NCBI GenBank assembly: GCA_013306675.1
Contig: JABLUY010000117.1
Location: 46,704 to 110,703, forward strand
Origin: Thraustochytrium sp. TN22
Taxonomy: Eukaryota > Sar > Bigyra > Thraustochytrida > Thraustochytriidae
Direction: 5' to 3'
Length of the DNA stretch: 64,000 nt
In this document: positions 21,424 to 31,307 of the stretch, piece by piece
Layout: each line of letters opens with the position of its first letter
Numbering within the stretch: position 1 is the first letter of the stretch
Position numbers and translations under genes: made by a program
The notes under the pieces: model-generated
Database searches by the model: none
Told to the model about the DNA's origin: nothing
The model's input: only the letters and a program-made list of their open reading frames with translations

Positions 21424-24400
21424 TCAGGAGGCCATATGAACCGAGAGCTGACGCGCGATCTGCTGGTAGCGCTCGCGCAACGATGCGGAGGACTTGCTGG
21501 TGCTGTAGAGGCGATGGTGACGCGCCTTGAGGCCATGGAGATTGACGCCCTTTTGGAGCGGCATGCTGAAGGCGCGCGCGTAGATGCGGCCGTAGCGCAT
21601 GTTGTGGCGGACCCTATCCCAGGCATCGACAGCGTCGCGGCGAATCTCCGAGGGCGAGCGATCGCTGCTCTTGAGGCGCTCGCGGTCCTCGGCCTTGGCG
21701 CGGCTGGCAGCGTCCTCGACAGACGAGGTGAGAACGAGCAGCGCGTTGATGAGGAGCTGCCAGACCAGGCTGCCAGCCCCGATGGCGACGCACACGAGCC
21801 ACTGCTGCCAGGAGAGGCCGCCAGAGGCAAGATTGACGGCGAGACCACCGAATTGGACAATGACGACCTGCGCGACGACCGTGGTAGCGACGATGCCGAT
21901 GAAGAGAGGGTTGCTGAAGATGCCGTTGAAGACGTTCCACTCCTGCCAGGATGAGCGCAGGCCCTCGACGGTCTGCAGGCGGCGCGCGTTGAGCTCGTTA
22001 AAGAAGGTGAGCATGACGAAGATGTTGAAGAAGACGGTCCAGTGCATGGAGGCGGCCTCGGGCTCGTACTCGAGAGGTGGGTCCAGCGGGAGCACCTGCG
22101 GGAAGTAGAGCACGGTAAGCTGCACGGCGATCTGGTAGATGCCCTGGCCGACGATGTTGAAGGCCATGACGCGCGAGATGACCCCACGGCCACGGCCATA
22201 GGGCGGGCGATCGAGGAGCTCCGGCGTGGGCAGCTCCGTGGCGAGTGCGAGCGAGGCAAGGCTGTCCATGATGAGGTTGATCCAGAGCATCTGGACGGCG
22301 CTGAGCGGGCTCTCGTTGTAGCTGAGCGCGCCAACCACGGCGAGCACAATAGCCGAGAGGTTGACGGTAAGCTGGAACTGGATAAACTTGGCGATCGAGT
22401 CGAACACATTGCGCCCCCAAGACACGGCCGCCACAATGGCGTTGAAGCTGGAGGAGAGCAGAATGATGTCGCAGGCCTGCTTGGCGGTCTCGGTGCCGAT
22501 GCCCATGGCGAAGCCGACGTCGGCGCTCTTGAGCGCCGGCGCGTCGTTGGTGCCGTCACCCGTGACGGCAACGACCTGGTAGTCCGGGAAGATGTGGATG
22601 TCGTGTTCGCGGCGCAGCTTCTTGCAGTACTCGTCATCAGCGAAAACGCGGCTGTTGCGCAGGCCACGCACGAGTGCGAGCTTGTCCTCCGGCTGGCAGC
22701 GCGCCAGGACGCGCAGCGTGGGCCAGAGCGCGTCAAACTTGTGCTGGATGAGGATCTTATTACCCTTCTTGTCAAGCTTGAAGGGCGCGGCCATGGCCTC
22801 TGAGGCCTCCATCTTGTCAAAGTCGAAGACGCGGCGACGCACCTTCTCCTTCGAGTTGTCCTTCTCGTGCACGCGCTCGTCGAACTCGGCGCCAGTCATG
22901 GCGAAGTTGGGCTTGGGCTTGCCGTTGGAGCCAAAGTCGCGATCGCGCAGGATGCCGCACTGGCGAGCGATGGCCACAGCCGTGGTGAGCGCGTCACCGG
23001 TGCACATGCGCACGTCGATGCCGGCCTTGCGGCAGGTGTCGATGGAGCGCGGCACGGACTCGCGCAGCGGGTCCTCGATGCCGACCAGGGCCACAAGCGT
23101 GAGGTCCTCCTCGAGGCCCTCGGACTTGCCCTCCCAGCCGCCCCGCGGCGCGTCCTTGAGGTCACGGTACGCGAGCGCCAGCGTGCGCATCCCGGCCTGC
23201 TGGTACTCGTCCATGGCCTTGTCGAGCTTTTGGCGCGCCGCGTCGTCGAGCGAGGACGATCCGAGGCCATCGTCGCTGGGCTCGGCCTGCGAAGAGCAGG
23301 CCGCGATGATCTGTGCGGGCGCACCCTTGCAAAAGAGGCGAAACTTGGCGCCGCTTGAGGTGGGCGACTTGAGCTGCACGACCCAGGACATCATCTTGCG
23401 CTCGGAGCTGAAGGGGATGGCGTAGACACCCCAGTCGAGGTCGGCGCCATCCTCAGCGTAGGACGAGCGCAGCGCGGCGGCTTCGTCGCCAAGCTGCGCC
23501 GCGAGCTTGAGCAGGGCGCACTCGGTCGGGTTGCCCTCGTACTCCCACTCGCCATTGCGGCACGTGGCGCGCGAGGTGGAGCCCGAGTCGAGGATGGAGA
23601 TCTCCGAGAGCGCCTGCAGCAGCGGCTTGGGCACGTTCTCGCGCTCAAGCACCTCGGCCAGGTTGGACACGTCGTCATCGCCGGCCTTGTACGCGTAGGA
23701 CTTACCGGCCAGGACGGTGCGCATGACGGTCATCTTGTTCTCCGTCAGCGTGCCGGTCTTGTCGGAGCAGATGGTGGTAGCGCTGCCCATGGTCTCGCAG
23801 CTGTCCATGTGCTTGACCTGGTTGTTGTCGCGCATCATGCGGCGCATGGAGATGGCGAGCGAGAGCGTGACGGCGAGCGGCAGGCCCTCCGGCACGGCCA
23901 CCACGAGAACGGTAATCCCCGTAATGAAGAAGCGCAGGATCGTGGCGAGGTCCGAGGGCTGCCAGGTGCGCTCGCACACGTCGCCGTCCCAGGAGCACGG
24001 GCTTGTGCAGGAGGCGGCGTCATGGATGGCGTCGCACCCGCCGCCCTGAATCCACTCCTCAATGACCCACTTGATGAGCATCACCGCAAAGACCAGGACG
24101 GCCACGATCATCCCGCCCTTGCCGATGTCCAGCGCAAGCTGGTCCAGTTTCTCCATGAGGTCGCCGCTGCCGTCGCCGCTGCCGCCAAAGGTGAAGAAGC
24201 CGCGGCACGCCATGAGGCATCGGCGCGCGGCGCCCGGCTTGTTCTCATCGCCGCTGTCGCTTTGCTCGCCTCCGCTATTGCCATGGCCGTTCTGCTGCTG
24301 GCCCGTCTCAATATCACCGTCTTCGCCATCCTGGTCGTTGCTAGTGGTGGGCATGTCGTCGCCCTGCTCGCGCAGGCGCGCCAGGATCTTGCCCTGCATC

Positions 24401-25290
24401 GAGAAGCGGCCAACGGCCACCACGAGCATGCGTCCCGAGCCGTGCATCACGTTCGTACCGGACACGATAAAGGGGTTGGAGGACTTCTTGCCGCCCGTCT
24501 CCTCCGCGTCGCCATCCCCGCCGTCATCGTCCTCGCCCCCCTTTGCGTCAGCGGCAAAGACACTCTTGTCCATGAGCGTCGTCTCTCCCGTAAGGGCGCT
24601 CTCATCCATGCGGACCTCACTGCCGTCGAGCAGGAGGCCGTCCGCTGGGACGATGTCGCCAACGGCGAGGCGCAGGACATCGCCCACAACGAGCTCGCGC
24701 GGGTGCACGGTCTGCGACTCGCCGTCGCGCACGATCTGCACCTGCTTGTTGCTGTCCAGCTCGATCTGCTGTGCGCGGAACTCGGCCTCCTTGGAGTAGT
24801 CCGTGATGGCCGCCACGTTGATGACAATGCAGACCGAGACCAAGATGCTCGTGCCCTCGATCCAGCCGTGCTGGAAGTCGCGCTCCACGCCGAGGCCCAG
24901 CACGAGCGAGACCACCGCCGAGGCGATGAGCATGATGATGGTCATGTCCTGCAGGCCTTCGTACAGCATCATGCAGAAGTTCGGCTTGGGAGGCAGGTCC
25001 ACGGCGTTCGAGCCGTAGCGCTCCTTCTGCGCCTCGAAGTCGAAGTCCTTGCTCAGCCCGCGCGACGGCTCGTCGCACCCGAGCGCCTTGGCCACGCCGC
25101 GCGCGCCGCCGAAGGCCTTGAGCAGGCCGATCTGCGCGTGCGCCACGCCCTCGCCCAGGCCTTCCGGCGAAAGCTCGTAGCCCTCCTTGCGCGGGTACCC
25201 GCCGCTGCTCTTGCCTCCATCCTGGCCGGCGCCGTACGAGCCGCGGCTGGCCTCCAGCAGCGGCTGCTCCTCGTCCCTCACCGGCGCCAT
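21424..25290 (-). CDS. Plasma-membrane-type Ca2+-transporting P-type ATPase (P2B)
   Basis: The 1288-aa protein is a P-type ATPase of the PMCA group, which exports cytosolic Ca2+ across the plasma membrane or into a vacuole. Visible are the actuator motif MDESALTGET, the phosphorylation site CSDKTGTLTENK (D510), the hinge TGDGTNDAPALKSADVGFAMG, and M4 with VAVPEGLPLAV, the PMCA-type PEGL signature. About ten membrane helices are evident. Between M3 and M4 the exported loop is long and contains five cysteines (CDAIHDAASCTSPCSWDGDVC), which is unusual. The C-terminal tail after M10 is basic and hydrophobic (RRDAVDAWDRVRHNMRYGRI), a plausible calmodulin-binding region. The start is the first ATG inside the ORF after an untranslated CCG repeat. 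Confidence 0.94.
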   Translation of the reverse strand: MAPVRDEEQPLLEASRGSYGAGQDGGKSSGGYPRKEGYELSPEGLGEGVAHAQIGLLKAFGGARGVAKALGCDEPSRGLSKDFDFEAQKERYGSNAVDLPPKPNFCMMLYEGLQDMTIIMLIASAVVSLVLGLGVERDFQHGWIEGTSILVSVCIVINVAAITDYSKEAEFRAQQIELDSNKQVQIVRDGESQTVHPRELVVGDVLRLAVGDIVPADGLLLDGSEVRMDESALTGETTLMDKSVFAADAKGGEDDDGGDGDAEETGGKKSSNPFIVSGTNVMHGSGRMLVVAVGRFSMQGKILARLREQGDDMPTTSNDQDGEDGDIETGQQQNGHGNSGGEQSDSGDENKPGAARRCLMACRGFFTFGGSGDGSGDLMEKLDQLALDIGKGGMIVAVLVFAVMLIKWVIEEWIQGGGCDAIHDAASCTSPCSWDGDVCERTWQPSDLATILRFFITGITVLVVAVPEGLPLAVTLSLAISMRRMMRDNNQVKHMDSCETMGSATTICSDKTGTLTENKMTVMRTVLAGKSYAYKAGDDDVSNLAEVLERENVPKPLLQALSEISILDSGSTSRATCRNGEWEYEGNPTECALLKLAAQLGDEAAALRSSYAEDGADLDWGVYAIPFSSERKMMSWVVQLKSPTSSGAKFRLFCKGAPAQIIAACSSQAEPSDDGLGSSSLDDAARQKLDKAMDEYQQAGMRTLALAYRDLKDAPRGGWEGKSEGLEEDLTLVALVGIEDPLRESVPRSIDTCRKAGIDVRMCTGDALTTAVAIARQCGILRDRDFGSNGKPKPNFAMTGAEFDERVHEKDNSKEKVRRRVFDFDKMEASEAMAAPFKLDKKGNKILIQHKFDALWPTLRVLARCQPEDKLALVRGLRNSRVFADDEYCKKLRREHDIHIFPDYQVVAVTGDGTNDAPALKSADVGFAMGIGTETAKQACDIILLSSSFNAIVAAVSWGRNVFDSIAKFIQFQLTVNLSAIVLAVVGALSYNESPLSAVQMLWINLIMDSLASLALATELPTPELLDRPPYGRGRGVISRVMAFNIVGQGIYQIAVQLTVLYFPQVLPLDPPLEYEPEAASMHWTVFFNIFVMLTFFNELNARRLQTVEGLRSSWQEWNVFNGIFSNPLFIGIVATTVVAQVVIVQFGGLAVNLASGGLSWQQWLVCVAIGAGSLVWQLLINALLVLTSSVEDAASRAKAEDRERLKSSDRSPSEIRRDAVDAWDRVRHNMRYGRIYARAFSMPLQKGVNLHGLKARHHRLYSTSKSSASLRERYQQIARQLSVHMAS

Positions 25291-25349
25291 CCTGCCTGCC
25301 GCCCTCGCCGCGTTGTGCCGCCGCCGCCGCCGCCGCCGCCGTCGCCGCC

Positions 25350-25381
<32 letters not shown>

Positions 25382-26304
25382 CGCTGCCGCCGCCGCCGCC
25401 GCACTGCCGCCCCGCCGCGCGCGCGCCGCCCTTCTTGATTCGATTCGCCCGATCTTGGCGCCCGCCTCGGACCCCGACTCGAACTCCACCTTGAAGACGA
25501 TGAAGATCCACAGCGGGGAGGCCGGCGCTCTGTCCCCTGGACATGGCGCAGGAAGCTAGCTCGTGAAGCGCAGGCTGGCTCAAGACCGGCAAGACGGCTT
25601 CAAGATGCCCGCCCTGCACGGTGGTGGAGTCGTGGCGGAGCCCGGCCTGCGCCTCACCGTTGCGGGCTCGTCACAGCACGCTGAGCACGGCGCAGCGCAG
25701 CACAGCGCAGCGCTCACTGGCTGGCGGCCGATGAGCCTCGCAAAGATGATGGGTTCCCGTGCGACGGAGGCCTTGTCACGCTGGCGGGCTTGCGAGGGCG
25801 GTCGCGTTGGTTGGGGCCAGCGGTGGCTATGTGACGCCCATGATGATCACTTGCGAGGTATGCCTAGCCAGGCGCTCGGTGATGCGGTAACGGAGAGCTT
25901 ACCTCTAGCTAGAGGCCTGGCCAGCGTGCTGCTGGGAACGTGCTCGCCAAAGGGTGGGAGGGAGAGGGAGGAGCCTCGAGGAGGCGCAAGCACGAAATCT
26001 CGACGCCTTTTTTCCTGCAGGTCTGACTGATACGTCGCTGCGAGAACCACAGCATCGACAAAGATTGTCCGCGTGGTGACCTGCCAACATGTACGTAATG
26101 CAGCACACAGCCTGCAGTGCAGCGCACCTTGTCCGAGTCCAAGTCGGAGCCCGACTTCAAGTTGAGATCTAACCGTGAGCGCACAGCGCACTGACAGTGA
26201 GCGCAGGTCGATTCAGACCTCGAGGACATAACGTCATGTGCGGCCGGCGCGGCCGGCGCCAGCAGAGCAGAGCATCTTCTCCAAGGACGGCGCCAAGCGC
26301 AGTG
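25291..26304. promoter_or_regulatory. Divergent interval Ca2+-ATPase / PIG-F
   Basis: About 1 kb. Directly upstream of the ATPase start is a CCG/GCC repeat (about 25318-25405), in the ATPase 5' leader. GCGCA-type repeats follow at about 25685-25720. An exact CTTCAAGTTG is at 26155-26164, about 140 bp before the PIG-F start, and CTAGCTAG is at 25905-25912. No gene is seen. Confidence 0.55.
25318..25405 (+). repeat. CCG/GCC trinucleotide repeat in the ATPase leader
   Basis: Nearly pure CCG units with occasional CTG or GTC interruptions, immediately 5' of the Ca2+-ATPase start on the minus strand. On the + strand it gives polyArg/polyPro ORFs that have no other coding character. Confidence 0.85.
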
Positions 26305-27052
26305 ATGGCGGCGCGCGCGGCGGTGGCGTGGGCGGCGGGCGACCTGGTATGGACGTCGACGTGCCTGGGCGTGGCGCCGCGCATGCTGCTGCGCGCCATG
26401 GTGGAGGAGGATCCGGTGGCCTATATCAAGGTGGCAACGCTCCTCGTGCTAGTGGGCCGCGTGGCGTGGTTCTACGCGCACTGGCCGCGGCACACGCGGT
26501 ACGCGCAGGTGCGGGACGCCGGCGACGCCTTCGTGGCGCAGACCATCGTCATGCAGGTGGCTGGCACGGTGCTGGTCTATGCGGTGCTGGTGCTCTTCGG
26601 TGCGCCGTTCGTGCAGTACGTGAGGGTGGAGAGTGACGCGCAGGCGAGCGTGGCGACGGCTGACGTTGGGTTGTTGAGCTGCGGCGCACAGGATGGCGGA
26701 TCGCACAATGTCGATTGCCGCTTTGCTGACTGCTCTCGCGGTGACGCCATTCGCATGGATCTCGTCGCGTGGCGGGGAGGCCAGAACGACGCGCGAAGAG
26801 GCGCTCAACTTTTACATACATTGGCGAACGGAGACGCCTGTAGATGCCATTTTGCTCGCGCAGGCGCTGGGGACGTGCGCTGGTGCGTGGCTCGGAGCGC
26901 TTCCCATCCCGCTCGACTGGGACCGGCCCTGGCAGGCGTGGCCCGTGACGCTCGTGTACGGTGGCGGGCTGGGCTTTCTCGTGGGCGGTTGCGCGGGCGT
27001 CGCCCTTGTCGCCTGGCGTCTTCGCGTCAAGGCGGGCGCCAAGGCAGACTGA
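26305..27052 (+). CDS. PIGF: GPI ethanolamine-phosphate transferase subunit PIG-F, probably spliced
   Basis: PIG-F stabilises the PIG-O and PIG-G enzymes that add ethanolamine phosphate to the GPI precursor in the ER. The 3' exon has the family signature CAGAWLGALPIPLDWDRPWQ followed by the last two helices. The 5' half lies in another frame (26305-about 26632) and gives helices around YIKVATLLVLVGRVAWFY and VAQTIVMQVAGTVLVYAV. The frames can be joined by a 46-nt intron at 26633-26678 (GTGACG...TTGAG, with CTGAC as possible branch point), giving 233 aa, close to family length. The more consensus-like donor at 26620 (GTGAGG) would not restore frame with the available AG sites. A frameshift is the alternative. 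An upstream in-frame ATG at 26236 is possible. Confidence 0.8.
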
Positions 27053-27120: not shown

Positions 27121-27265
27121 CAGACGGACATGCAGACAGACAGACAAACACAGGCCGGCAAGCAGGCAGGCCGGCAAGCAGGCAGGCCGGCCGGCAAGCA
27201 GGCAGGCCGGCAAGCAGGCAGGACGGCAAACAAGCAGGCCGGCAAGCAGGCAGGCAGGCAAGCAG
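27121..27265 (+). repeat. AGGCCGGCAAGC minisatellite
   Basis: About ten imperfect copies of an 8-12 bp unit (AGGC, CGGCAAGC, AGGCAGGC) lie between the PIG-F stop and the clathrin light chain stop. It is in the convergent 3' interval and contains no gene. Confidence 0.85.
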
Positions 27266-27282
27266 TCGACGACGAATTTCAA

Positions 27283-28488
27283 TTAGACCTTCTCGTTCTT
27301 GAGCTGAAGAAGCAGGTTCTTCATGCGGTCGCGGTTGACGGAGCCCTCCTGAAAGGCGAAATCGACCAGCGTGGAGATGCGCGCCCAATTCGGGGGCTCG
27401 CCCGGACCGCCAGCGTCAGTAGCGGCCTCCTCGGTCTCCCGCAGGAAAGCAGACTCGTTCTCGCGGTTTGTGGTGTAGCGGACAGCGTTGGTGTTGGTGC
27501 GCTCGGCATAGAGCTCATCAAGCTCCTCCTCGGCCTTCTCCTGCATCTCCTGGCGGCGCTGTTCGGCGGCGCTGTCCAGGCCCTGCACCCTCTGGCTGAA
27601 CTGCGCTTCCCAGGCGACGCGTGCGTCGGGCTCGTCGTCGTCGAGGTCCGAGGTGGACGAGGCCGAGGGTGGCGCGGCGGGCGCGGCGGGCGGCGGCGCC
27701 TCGGCGAAGTAGTCAAAGGTCTGCGCTGCCTCCGCAGGCGGCGGCTCAAAGCGGGGCGCCTCCTCGATGGTCTCCGGCTCCTGCTGCGGCGGGGACTGCT
27801 GCGGCGCGTCGAACGCGGCGTGTGGGTCCGGGACGGCGTGCGGGCACGGCGGGGGCGACACCGGGTCAACCGTAAGGTTGATCGGGTTCTCAGGCGGGCC
27901 CTGCGCGCCCTGCAGCTCGATAGCCCACTGCTGCTCGGCCTCATCCGCCTGCGAGAGCATCTCGAAGTGCGGTTGCGGCAGGTTCGGGTCACGCGCGCTG
28001 AAGTCCTTCACTTGCACGCCGGCGCCCTGCGATGGGTCCAGGCCGGCCGCCTGGAAGTGCGCCGTGAGCCCCGAGTACGCGCCGTTGAAGTTGCCGATGC
28101 GGATGTTGCACGAGTCGTCCAGCTGTACCGGCATGGGCGTGAAGGCGCGCACCGTGCAGTCCGAGGACGAGTTGATGCGCAGGTCCTTGCAGGCCACGGT
28201 GAAGACGCAGTTCTTGCACTTGCGCAGCATGACGGACTCGCGCGAAGGGCCAAGAAAGACATGGCAGTTCGTCAGGTCGCTCACCACCACGCGATTCGTC
28301 ACGTCCAGCACCGTCACAGTGCAGTCGGTGAGGCCGTCCAGCTGGAACTCCTCGCCGTTCACCTCGCCGGGCACCTTGGACAGCGTCTCATCGCTGCGGT
28401 TGCGGAAGCTGAAGTAGTGCTCGAACAGGTACCGCCTGTACTCGCGCGGGTCCTCAAACTCGCGCCCGTCCGGGGTCGTGACGCCCAT
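27283..28488 (-). CDS. TBCC/RP2-like C-CAP domain fused to clathrin light chain
   Basis: The 401-aa protein joins two families. Residues about 1-175 are a C-CAP/TBCC domain closest to RP2: GEVNGEEFQLDGLTDC, then VSDLTNCHVFLGPSRESVML, CKNCVFTVACKDLRINSSSDC and a final IGNFNGAY; the arginine used as GAP finger in RP2/TBCC is present (KDLRI), though the usual Gln two residues before it is Asp. A Pro/Ala/Glu linker (about 190-290) follows. Residues about 290-401 are clathrin light chain: a charged helix (AEEELDELYAERTN) and the conserved end NWARISTLVDF...RMKNLLLQLKNE, which binds the clathrin heavy chain near the trimerisation region. Both parts lie in one uninterrupted frame. The start ATG is the only good one before the TBCC domain. 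Confidence 0.88.
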   Translation of the reverse strand: MGVTTPDGREFEDPREYRRYLFEHYFSFRNRSDETLSKVPGEVNGEEFQLDGLTDCTVTVLDVTNRVVVSDLTNCHVFLGPSRESVMLRKCKNCVFTVACKDLRINSSSDCTVRAFTPMPVQLDDSCNIRIGNFNGAYSGLTAHFQAAGLDPSQGAGVQVKDFSARDPNLPQPHFEMLSQADEAEQQWAIELQGAQGPPENPINLTVDPVSPPPCPHAVPDPHAAFDAPQQSPPQQEPETIEEAPRFEPPPAEAAQTFDYFAEAPPPAAPAAPPSASSTSDLDDDEPDARVAWEAQFSQRVQGLDSAAEQRRQEMQEKAEEELDELYAERTNTNAVRYTTNRENESAFLRETEEAATDAGGPGEPPNWARISTLVDFAFQEGSVNRDRMKNLLLQLKNEKV

Positions 28489-29204
28489 GGTGTCGGCGGC
28501 CGCAGGCAATCCAGTGCAGCGCAGCGCAGCGCAGCGCAGCGAGGTGCTGACGAGAGCGACAGAGGACGGGCGGCACTTGGCGCCAAACAAGCGCGTCCGG
28601 GCCGCGCCGCGCGCTCGCGATGCCGCGCGCCGCCGCCGCCGCGCCGCCTCCACGCCTCGCCGGACTGCCCGATGCTGGAGGCGGCCGCAATAGAGGAGTT
28701 GATCTTCGAGCGGAGGCCTTCCTTCTCTGCTTCGCAACGTCGATCAACCGGCCTATCAAAAGGCACATTCGCCTACGAGCGCGCCGCGGTCACGAGCGCG
28801 GCAAGCTGCAGGGCAGCTTTGCCTTGCAGACCGCATGAGCGAGCAGACCCATCAGTCAGCAGCCTCAGTCCGAGCAAGAGAAGCGCGCACAACTTGAAGC
28901 GACGAGCGACGATCGGAGGTAGGGCGGTAGTACTTTAGTAGATTCCAGACCGTCAGGCTGGCACGAAGGATGAGGGAGGTCTTGGGACGAGAACTTGCTC
29001 GCGCTTGGAGGGAGACACATGGTGAAAAAACTCTGCAAAAGTAAAACGGACGAAATTGGGATCGATTCGGATGGCTACATTCAAATGGGGGGTGGGGGTG
29101 AGAGGAAGGCAGAGGAAGGAGGAAAACGGAGGCGGCGCCTCGCGCTGCCGCAGAAGATGCAGCTGCTGCAGAGGCGGCCCCCTTGCGGTCACGGGGGGGC
29201 TGGT
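28489..29204. other. Interval upstream of the TBCC-clathrin gene, downstream of GFAT
   Basis: About 0.7 kb. It has a GCGCA pentamer run at about 28515-28540 and an exact CAACTTGAAG at 28890-28899. Many GGGG/AGAGG runs precede the GFAT stop. The ORFs here have no recognisable product. Confidence 0.55.
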
Positions 29205-31307
29205 TTACTCCACGGTGACGCTCTTGGCGAGGTTGCGGGGCGAGTCGATCTCGCAGCCACGGTAGTCAGCAATGTAGTAGGAAAGGAGCTGCAGGGGGAT
29301 GCAGGTGACGAGCGGGGAGAGCCACTCGGTGGTGGAAGGAACGACGATGACGTTCTCGGCGAGCTTGGCGAGGTCGGTGGCGCCCTCGGCGTCGGTGATG
29401 GCGAGGACGTTGCCGGAGCGGGCGACGACCTCCTGGATGTTGGAGCGCACCTTCTCGTAGTTGGCGTCGTGGTAGCGCTTGGGAGCGATGACGCAGACGG
29501 GCATCTGGTGGTCGATGAGGGAGATGGGGCCGTGCTTCATCTCGGCGGCCGGGTAGCCCTCAGCGTGGACGTAGGAGACCTCCTTGAGCTTGAGCGCGGA
29601 CTCGAGGGCGACTGGGAAGTTGAAGCCGCGGCCGAGGTAGAGGAAGTTCTTGGCGTAGCGCAGGGAGGCGGAGAGGCCCTTGAGCTCGGCGAGGGTGTCG
29701 GGCTTGAGGATCTCGGCAACCTTGTCCGGGATGTCCTGGAGCTCGCGAGAGTAGCGCAGACCCTCCTCGGCGGTGATGGTGCCGTTGCGCTGGCCGAGCA
29801 CAACGGCGAGCATGGAGAGGACGAGGACCTGGCCGGTGAAGGCCTTGGTGGAGGCGACACCAATCTCGGGGCCGACCTGGAGGTAAACGACGGCGTCGGT
29901 CTCGCGCGCGATGGAAGAGCCAACGACGTTGACGACGCCGAGGGTGAGGGCGCCGGCCTTGTTGGCGATGCGGATGGCCTCAAGGGTGTCGGCGGTCTCG
30001 CCGGACTGGGAGGTGACGATGACGACGTCGTCCTTGAAGAGGAGCGGGGAGCGGTAGCGGAACTCCGAGGCGTACTCGACCTCGACCGGGATGCGCGCCA
30101 TGCTCTCGAGCAGGTACTCGCCGACGAGGCCGGAGTGCCAGCTGGTGCCGCAGGCGCAGATGATGATGCGGCGCGCCTTGAGGATGCGCGGCATGACGTC
30201 GTCGAGCGAGGGCAGCTGGAGCATGCCGGTCTCCTCGTTGACGCGGCCGCGCAGGCACTCGCGCAGGACCTTGGGCTGCTCCATGATCTCCTTGAGCATG
30301 AAATGCTTGAAGCCGTTCTTCTGGATGGTCTCGAGCTTCATGGTGAGCTCCACGGAGCTGCGCTCGACGCGCGGCGTGGAGGAGGAGCGGCGGAAGAGCT
30401 TCTTCATGGACTGCGCGTGCGGCGTCATGGGGCGGCGGCCGAGCATGAAGTCGGTGCCGTCGCGGCAGTCGACCGCGACGGAGAGCGGGCCGGACCGCTT
30501 GGACTCCTCGGAGTTGCGCGAGGGGCTGGAGCTGACGGACTCCTCGGAGTCCGAGGTCGAGTCGGCGTAGTCCGAGAAGTGGGCCTCGGCCATGGACCCG
30601 ATCGAGTACGAGTAGTCGCCCGTGTGCGGGTTGCGCATGCAGGTGACGACGTCGTCCTCCTCCAGGTAGACGACCTTGTTGGCGATGCCGGCCACGGCCG
30701 TGGCGTCGGAGGCGAGCATGAGACCGTCCTCGCTCTGGCCCAGGATGAGCGGCGAGCCGCGGCGCGCGCCGACCAGCAGGTGCGGGTGGGCCTCGTCGAT
30801 GACGCAGACAGCCCAGGCGCCGTTGCACTCGGCGAGGGCCAGGCTCACGGCGGCCTCGAGCGGGAGCGAGGGGTCGACGATCTGCTGGTGGCGGATGAGG
30901 ACGGCCAGGATCTCGCTGTCCGTGTCGCTCACGAAGAAGTAGCCAAGCGCCGTCAGTTCATCCTTGAGCTGCTGGTAGTTCTCGATGATGCCATTGTGCA
31001 CGATGGCGATCTTGTTGTCGTTGGAGCAGTGCGGGTGCGAGTTGATGTCCGTGGGCGGGCCGTGCGTGGCCCAGCGCGTGTGGGCGACGGCGACGTGCGC
31101 GTCCTTGAAAGCCGGGCGGCCTGCCACGGCGCCCTCCAGGTTGATCACCTTGCCCTTCTTCTTCTCCACCTGCACACCGGCCTCGTGCGCATTAATGCAC
31201 GCCACACCGGCCGAGTCGTAGCCGCGGTACTCCATGCGGCGGAGCCCCTCCAGCGCCACCGGCACGGTCTGGCTGCCCACGAGCAGCGTCGCGATGATGC
31301 CGCACAT
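29205..31307 (-). CDS. GFAT: Glutamine-fructose-6-phosphate aminotransferase (isomerising)
   Basis: GFAT converts fructose-6-phosphate and glutamine to glucosamine-6-phosphate, the entry to UDP-GlcNAc, glycans and GPI anchors; it acts in the cytosol. The 700-aa product starts MCGIIA, so Cys2 becomes the N-terminal nucleophile of the glutaminase half. EYRGYDSAG, HTRWATHG and the HNGIIENY motif follow. A Ser-rich insert of about 50 residues (about 235-290) separates the halves, as in eukaryotic GFATs. The isomerase half has two SIS domains with CGTSWHSGLVGEYLLE and VTSQSGETADTLEA, and the protein ends in PRNLAKSVTVE, the family C-terminus. The start is fixed by Cys2. The adjacent GPI genes use the sugar made in this pathway, although clustering may be chance. 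Confidence 0.97.
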   Translation of the reverse strand: MCGIIATLLVGSQTVPVALEGLRRMEYRGYDSAGVACINAHEAGVQVEKKKGKVINLEGAVAGRPAFKDAHVAVAHTRWATHGPPTDINSHPHCSNDNKIAIVHNGIIENYQQLKDELTALGYFFVSDTDSEILAVLIRHQQIVDPSLPLEAAVSLALAECNGAWAVCVIDEAHPHLLVGARRGSPLILGQSEDGLMLASDATAVAGIANKVVYLEEDDVVTCMRNPHTGDYSYSIGSMAEAHFSDYADSTSDSEESVSSSPSRNSEESKRSGPLSVAVDCRDGTDFMLGRRPMTPHAQSMKKLFRRSSSTPRVERSSVELTMKLETIQKNGFKHFMLKEIMEQPKVLRECLRGRVNEETGMLQLPSLDDVMPRILKARRIIICACGTSWHSGLVGEYLLESMARIPVEVEYASEFRYRSPLLFKDDVVIVTSQSGETADTLEAIRIANKAGALTLGVVNVVGSSIARETDAVVYLQVGPEIGVASTKAFTGQVLVLSMLAVVLGQRNGTITAEEGLRYSRELQDIPDKVAEILKPDTLAELKGLSASLRYAKNFLYLGRGFNFPVALESALKLKEVSYVHAEGYPAAEMKHGPISLIDHQMPVCVIAPKRYHDANYEKVRSNIQEVVARSGNVLAITDAEGATDLAKLAENVIVVPSTTEWLSPLVTCIPLQLLSYYIADYRGCEIDSPRNLAKSVTVE

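Follow-up and report, generated by a model that had tools for sequence, protein, structure and literature searches.

A predicted protein joining a TBCC/RP2-type domain to a clathrin light chain in Thraustochytrium sp. TN22

RP2 and ARL3 control the delivery of lipidated proteins to cilia, and clathrin light chain tunes the assembly of clathrin coats. A sequence-only reading of a window of 64,000 nucleotides (the whole stretch of DNA analysed here) claimed a single open reading frame with a TBCC/RP2-type domain and a C-terminal light chain, and knew of no described protein with both. Among the matches listed from open-licence PubMed Central papers, we likewise found no description of such a joint protein; one paper from that search (PMC5390468) is, in the part of it that came up, a chicken and pig gene-expression study. 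The main text of an Aurantiochytrium limacinum proteome (PMC12221091), in the portion searched, contains neither RP2 nor TBCC, and clathrin appears there in the reference list only.

An open frame through both domains

The fusion frame runs uninterrupted on the minus strand, from the ATG at 28488-28486 to the stop at 27285-27283. Its parts are as follows.

27283 to 28488, minus strand: coding sequence of the fusion protein, 401 residues plus stop (translation, in-frame codon score)
28354 to 28479, minus strand: N-terminal segment, residues 4-45 (PDGxxFxD, then Y), common to the C66 and C409 paralogues (BLASTP with the C66 paralogue, alignment)
28000 to 28353, minus strand: TBCC (C-CAP) beta-helix domain, residues 46-163 (Pfam)
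27880 to 27999, minus strand: tail, residues 164-203, common to the C66 paralogue, with PENP at 199-202 (BLASTP over residues 4-213)
27640 to 27879, minus strand: linker, residues 204-283, with a high content of Pro, Ala, Glu and Gln and mostly predicted to be disordered (pLDDT, codon score)
27292 to 27681, minus strand: clathrin light chain domain, residues 270-399 (PF01086, profile positions 89-215 of 222, E 8.8e-16)

A Pfam scan of the product at E <= 10 reported two families, TBCC and Clathrin_lg_ch. TBCC (PF07986) scored 93.9 bits against a cut-off of 24.8 and covered profile positions 2-120 of 120 (E 7.9e-27), while Clathrin_lg_ch scored 58.9 bits against a cut-off of 22. Both domains exceed the curated Pfam cut-offs in one frame, so the claim of a single frame with two domains stands, with profile-HMM support on both sides. 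A stop in the linker, which had been named as an objection, was not found: the frame is open throughout and the window holds no N.

We scored synonymous codon use with a measure trained on two neighbouring genes. The fusion frame came out top of the six frames in the TBCC part (0.46), the linker (0.42) and the light-chain part (0.36). In the linker, the second-best score (0.21) belonged to an antisense frame. The opposite strand is likewise open across the whole fusion stretch and has lower codon scores. Third-position GC was 0.88-0.97 in the 40-codon blocks as far as codon 320, then 0.75 and 0.85 in the two remaining full blocks; overall GC in the window was 0.64-0.725 in 4-kb steps.

Could the two domains belong to separate genes? 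The genome apparently has introns, seen as inserts beginning GTACGT in interrupted Arf genes (C362, C223). The splice donor patterns GTRVGT, GTACG and GTRAG had no match in the linker, for which we rejected an intron; their single occurrence in the frame, at codon 69, falls in the TBCC part. In-frame ATGs stand at codons 1, 87, 119, 177, 315 and 389. A separate light-chain gene starting at an in-frame ATG would cut one of the domains, because the only ATGs after the TBCC domain are codon 177, inside a TBCC tail that can be aligned with human cofactor C as far as Trp188, codon 315, inside the heavy-chain-binding helix, and codon 389. Given the open frame, the native codon preference of the linker and the ATG positions, two separate genes were rejected as the main reading.

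An assembly join, or a private, unexpressed and decaying fusion, would also produce such a frame. The fusion is known from a single genome, where the assembly (37.9 Mb, 453 contigs) holds one full-length copy. However, the join is in frame, the native codon preference continues through the linker with no N and no stop, both domains are intact, and the tail shared with a paralogue is kept through PENP ahead of the linker. We regard an artefact or a decaying gene as very unlikely. On the DNA evidence we are highly confident that the fusion is real at the sequence level, and it is presumably translated as one chain.

Pattern searches with the single protein as query, which reach close relatives only, gave 10 matches in viral contigs and 40 in bacterial and archaeal genome contigs, none of them confirmed. 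No viral or prokaryotic relative is expected because the gene is eukaryotic, and the result says nothing on how widely the fusion is spread.

Around the fusion gene, the window carries a convergent PIG-F gene (GPI-anchor synthesis) at 26338-27052 on the plus strand, in two open pieces with Pfam E-values of 5.9e-5 (narrowly below the cut-off) and 4.8e-24, apparently separated by an intron near 26620-26692. A tandem repeat at 27151-27265 (period 16, CAGGCCGGCAAGCAGG, 6.9 copies) lies between this gene and the fusion gene, and CAGCG is repeated six times at 28512-28541, just upstream of the fusion start codon. Two further minus-strand genes are single open frames: a glutamine-fructose-6-phosphate transaminase type with GATase and two SIS domains (29205-31307), and a P-type cation ATPase (21424-25404).

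Elsewhere in the assembly, the mitochondrial contig C318 (cox1; 22,353 bases, GC 0.362) almost lacks TTA as a sense codon. TTA acting as a stop typifies the Thraustochytrium mitochondrial code (NCBI table 23). An AT-rich mitochondrial genome would be expected to use TTA often for leucine, but cox1 has 58 other Leu codons and not one TTA. On the minus strand there are 15 open frames of 180 codons or more, four of them free of TTA. Ten of the remaining eleven have TTA only within about 70 codons of an end of the stop-to-stop frame, mostly much closer; the last, a 200-codon frame that may be no gene, contains nine, with eight in its first 81 codons. This codon use makes the organism most likely a thraustochytrid or a close labyrinthulomycete.

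Predicted fold of the two halves

AlphaFold modelled the fusion as an RP2/TBCC-like beta-helix, then a disordered linker, then a long helix with two further helices at the end. The beta-helix was predicted with pLDDT 83-96 per 10-residue block over residues 31-150, and the fold of the modelled TBCC part was closest to RP2 and TBCC (Foldseek, VIA-align). The structural-match lists span model residues 1-223, and the light-chain half is absent from them. Searched whole against the PDB at E <= 1, the fusion gave ten matches: two to XRP2 (best E 9.5e-21), three to tubulin cofactor C (best E 1e-16) and five, weak, to clathrin light chains (E 0.0081 to 0.14).

In the linker, pLDDT fell below 50 at residues 206-246, 248-265 and 274-283, and residues 187-272 alone matched no Pfam family at E <= 0.01. 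We place the join at about residues 204-283 because both the N-terminal segment and the tail that flank the TBCC domain are also common to a TBCC paralogue.

Two structural elements stand out in the light-chain half.

27418 to 27630, minus strand: long helix, residues 287-357, the equivalent of the heavy-chain-binding helix, with the conserved Trp293 (model and alignment)
27295 to 27387, minus strand: two C-terminal helices, residues 368-380 and 386-398, the conserved light-chain end (model, alignments with the C252 light chain and 6wcj)

A chance coiled-coil match was considered and rejected. Residues 267-401 alone had Clathrin_lg_ch as their sole Pfam match at E <= 0.01 (E 3.2e-16), and all five distinct PDB sequences found at E <= 1 were clathrin light chains (best E 0.0026). 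Mammalian light chains align with the fusion from EPDARVAW, which pairs with EPESIRKW of clathrin light chain A (1xi4), to LLLQLK. The C-terminal helices read NWARISTLVDF ... RMKNLLLQLK and have pLDDT of about 66-80. Profile positions 1-88 of PF01086, the N-terminal region of light chains, were unmatched in the fusion. Taken together, the TBCC part and the light-chain part are both predicted to retain their structural core, and we infer from sequence that the light-chain half would dock on the clathrin heavy chain.

Relatives, candidate partners and the GAP site

Searching the genome at E <= 0.001 with Clathrin_lg_ch returned two matches, the fusion and C252:30132-30665. The latter is an ordinary light chain, read from MADQDPFGF onward (Pfam E 1.9e-19); against the PDB it had no match at E <= 0.1. 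It is identical to the fusion at 35 of 110 aligned core positions. The check for another light chain in the genome, proposed with the sequence-only reading, therefore found one. We rejected the fusion as the sole light chain and regard it as an extra one, because the genome has a separate ordinary copy. The heavy-chain repeat profile gave eight matches, seven of them in one 1707-residue frame on C76, which alone matched the heavy-chain linker profile; the eighth, on C244, was weaker (E 9.2e-8) and over the cut-off. The genome has one clear predicted heavy-chain gene.

The TBCC profile matched six times in the genome. By score, the nearest relatives of the whole fusion were on C66 (158 bits, residues 4-279) and C409 (127 bits, residues 5-203), followed by C47 (54.5 bits), C32 (54.2 bits) and C450 (26.1 bits). 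The BLASTP match with the C66 protein spans residues 4-213 and includes the PENP motif. Tudor-like matches are strong in C409, and C66 has one just over the cut-off (27.8 against 27.2 bits). The C409 gene (C409:206000-215000, minus strand) is a frame of 3096 residues whose TBCC domain is near that of the fusion. The C47 protein has TBCC_N and TBCC and is read as tubulin cofactor C itself because it carries TBCC_N; C450 has only TBCC in Pfam. On C32 (L017:1987-5934, minus strand), a frame of 1316 residues carries TBCC near its start and then an EF-hand pair. We group the TBCC part by scores and common flanks, and on this basis the fusion is best described as a C66-type protein minus the Tudor part, plus a linker and the putative heavy-chain-binding and C-terminal parts of a light chain.

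Candidate partners are also encoded. An ARL3-like protein (C418) has ARL3 as its best PDB match (E 5.3e-74), an ARL2-like protein (C448) has ARL2 (E 1.9e-84), and the PDEdelta/UNC119 family has two matches. The predicted machinery for an ARL-linked clathrin subunit is present in this genome, which speaks to possibility and not to interaction.

We then compared the GAP site with that of RP2. In the sections of PMC4539340 and PMC8271468 that describe it, Arg118 is the arginine finger, Glu138 is important for the rate, Gln115 and Gln116 contact the nucleotide, and Ser99, Phe101 and Arg120 lie nearby. The fusion has R104 for Arg118, D124 for Glu138, K101 for Gln115, D102 for Gln116, S85 for Ser99, M87 for Phe101 and N106 for Arg120. 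Two of these residues lie at:

28177 to 28179, minus strand: Arg104, equivalent of the RP2 Arg118 finger (alignment to 2bx6)
28117 to 28119, minus strand: Asp124, replacing RP2 Glu138 (alignment to 2bx6)

The earlier observation that the GAP arginine is kept was borne out by this alignment. Four paralogues were aligned at the same positions (C66, C409, C47 and C32; C450 was left out). The Gln115 equivalent is Lys or Arg in all four, and a passage of PMC4539340 gives His at this position in Leishmania TBCC; because of both, Gln115 is by these alignments a poor GAP criterion. C32 also has Met for Phe101, and of the four only C66 and C409 retain Arg120. At the Gln116, Arg118 and Glu138 positions all four match RP2. 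The fusion is distinctive in having Asp in place of both Gln116 and Glu138, because its other changes recur in paralogues. The previous caution that the neighbouring Gln has become Asp was right (D102) but somewhat too mild, since Glu138 has also become Asp and both residues are kept in every aligned paralogue. Asp at both sites beside the kept arginine may indicate a weakened GAP, a changed partner or a non-catalytic binding effector.

These residues bear directly on whether the fusion puts an active ARL2/ARL3 GAP on the coat, with Arg104 completing the GTPase site and ARL turned off at clathrin vesicles. The finger is kept, the change of Glu138 to Asp retains a similar charge, the Gln115 change need not matter given the paralogues and Leishmania TBCC, the fold is nearest RP2 and TBCC, and both ARL2 and ARL3 are in the genome. 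Yet Gln116 and Glu138 are both replaced where the paralogues hold them, and replacing RP2 Glu138 by Ala or Gly greatly reduces the rate, as stated in the relevant part of PMC8271468. The catalytic GAP strength of the fusion is probably below that of RP2, and we consider an active GAP unlikely. Of the proposal that an ARL-type GAP activity sits on the clathrin coat, the arginine finger survives, but with Gln116 and Glu138 changed the active-GAP reading is not favoured.

The changed Gln116 and Glu138 equivalents could also mean another partner for the TBCC part. It might be a tether that has ceased to act on ARL GTPases, contacting for example tubulin or the flagellar base and bringing clathrin to, for example, the membrane around the zoospore flagellum. 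Two altered GAP-site residues and the presence of a tubulin cofactor among TBCC-fold proteins fit such a role; sequence evidence of tubulin contact was not found, however, and the arginine finger is still present. A tether of this kind seems to us quite improbable.

A proposed second light chain and its known counterparts

We favour, with modest confidence, the view that the fusion is a second light chain bringing an ARL-binding TBCC module to clathrin coats. The C-terminal half would dock on the heavy chain, as a second, specialised light chain, and the flexible linker with its RP2/TBCC-type beta-helix would stand where the light-chain N-terminal region normally sits. Each triskelion taking up the fusion would display a TBCC-type domain on the coat. 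That domain would most likely bind an ARL2/ARL3-type GTPase or its lipidated-cargo complex, which would tie coat dynamics or cargo release to the ARL pathway. We infer the ARL binding of the TBCC part and the function of the fusion from the DNA sequence of one genome. No general connection between RP2 and clathrin is available as support, because RP2-bearing organelles in olfactory neurons are described, in the pertinent part of PMC9653401, as being without clathrin.

A more specific version of the second-light-chain reading can be offered only tentatively. A coat subunit carrying an ARL2/ARL3 regulator would make two kinds of triskelion, the ordinary kind and one displaying an RP2-like domain, and couple assembly or disassembly to a lipidated-cargo switch, perhaps at the zoospore flagellar base. 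If true, a covalent link between an RP2-type domain and a light chain would give a testable tie between ARL switching and clathrin coats, probably in a zoospore-forming stramenopile. The ordinary light chain is still in the genome and available for comparison.

How does the fusion compare with known systems? RP2 (XRP2) has a C-terminal domain after TBCC, whereas the fusion has a light-chain domain there; the RP2 C-terminal domain was not found in it by Pfam, and the phmmer alignment with XRP2 stops at residue 164. Gln115, Gln116, Glu138, Phe101 and Arg120 of RP2 are all changed. RP2 also carries an acylation pattern at its N-terminus. The fusion begins MGVTTPDG, and we set RP2-like acylation aside as unlikely because Pro, fifth after Met, misfits the usual myristoylation pattern. 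Tubulin cofactor C has TBCC_N, for which the fusion has no match. The Tudor-TBCC proteins on C66 and C409 are its top-scoring TBCC relatives and share the same flanking segments, but they have Tudor-like matches, lack Clathrin_lg_ch and keep the Gln116 and Glu138 equivalents.

With clathrin light chains, the fusion shares the heavy-chain-binding helix with its conserved Trp293 and the C-terminal helices, whereas the region of profile positions 1-88 is replaced by the linker and the TBCC domain. This suggests that a light chain can exchange its N-terminal region for a GTPase-regulator-type domain and still retain its heavy-chain-binding part. Both halves belong to known families, and the novelty is the domain architecture.
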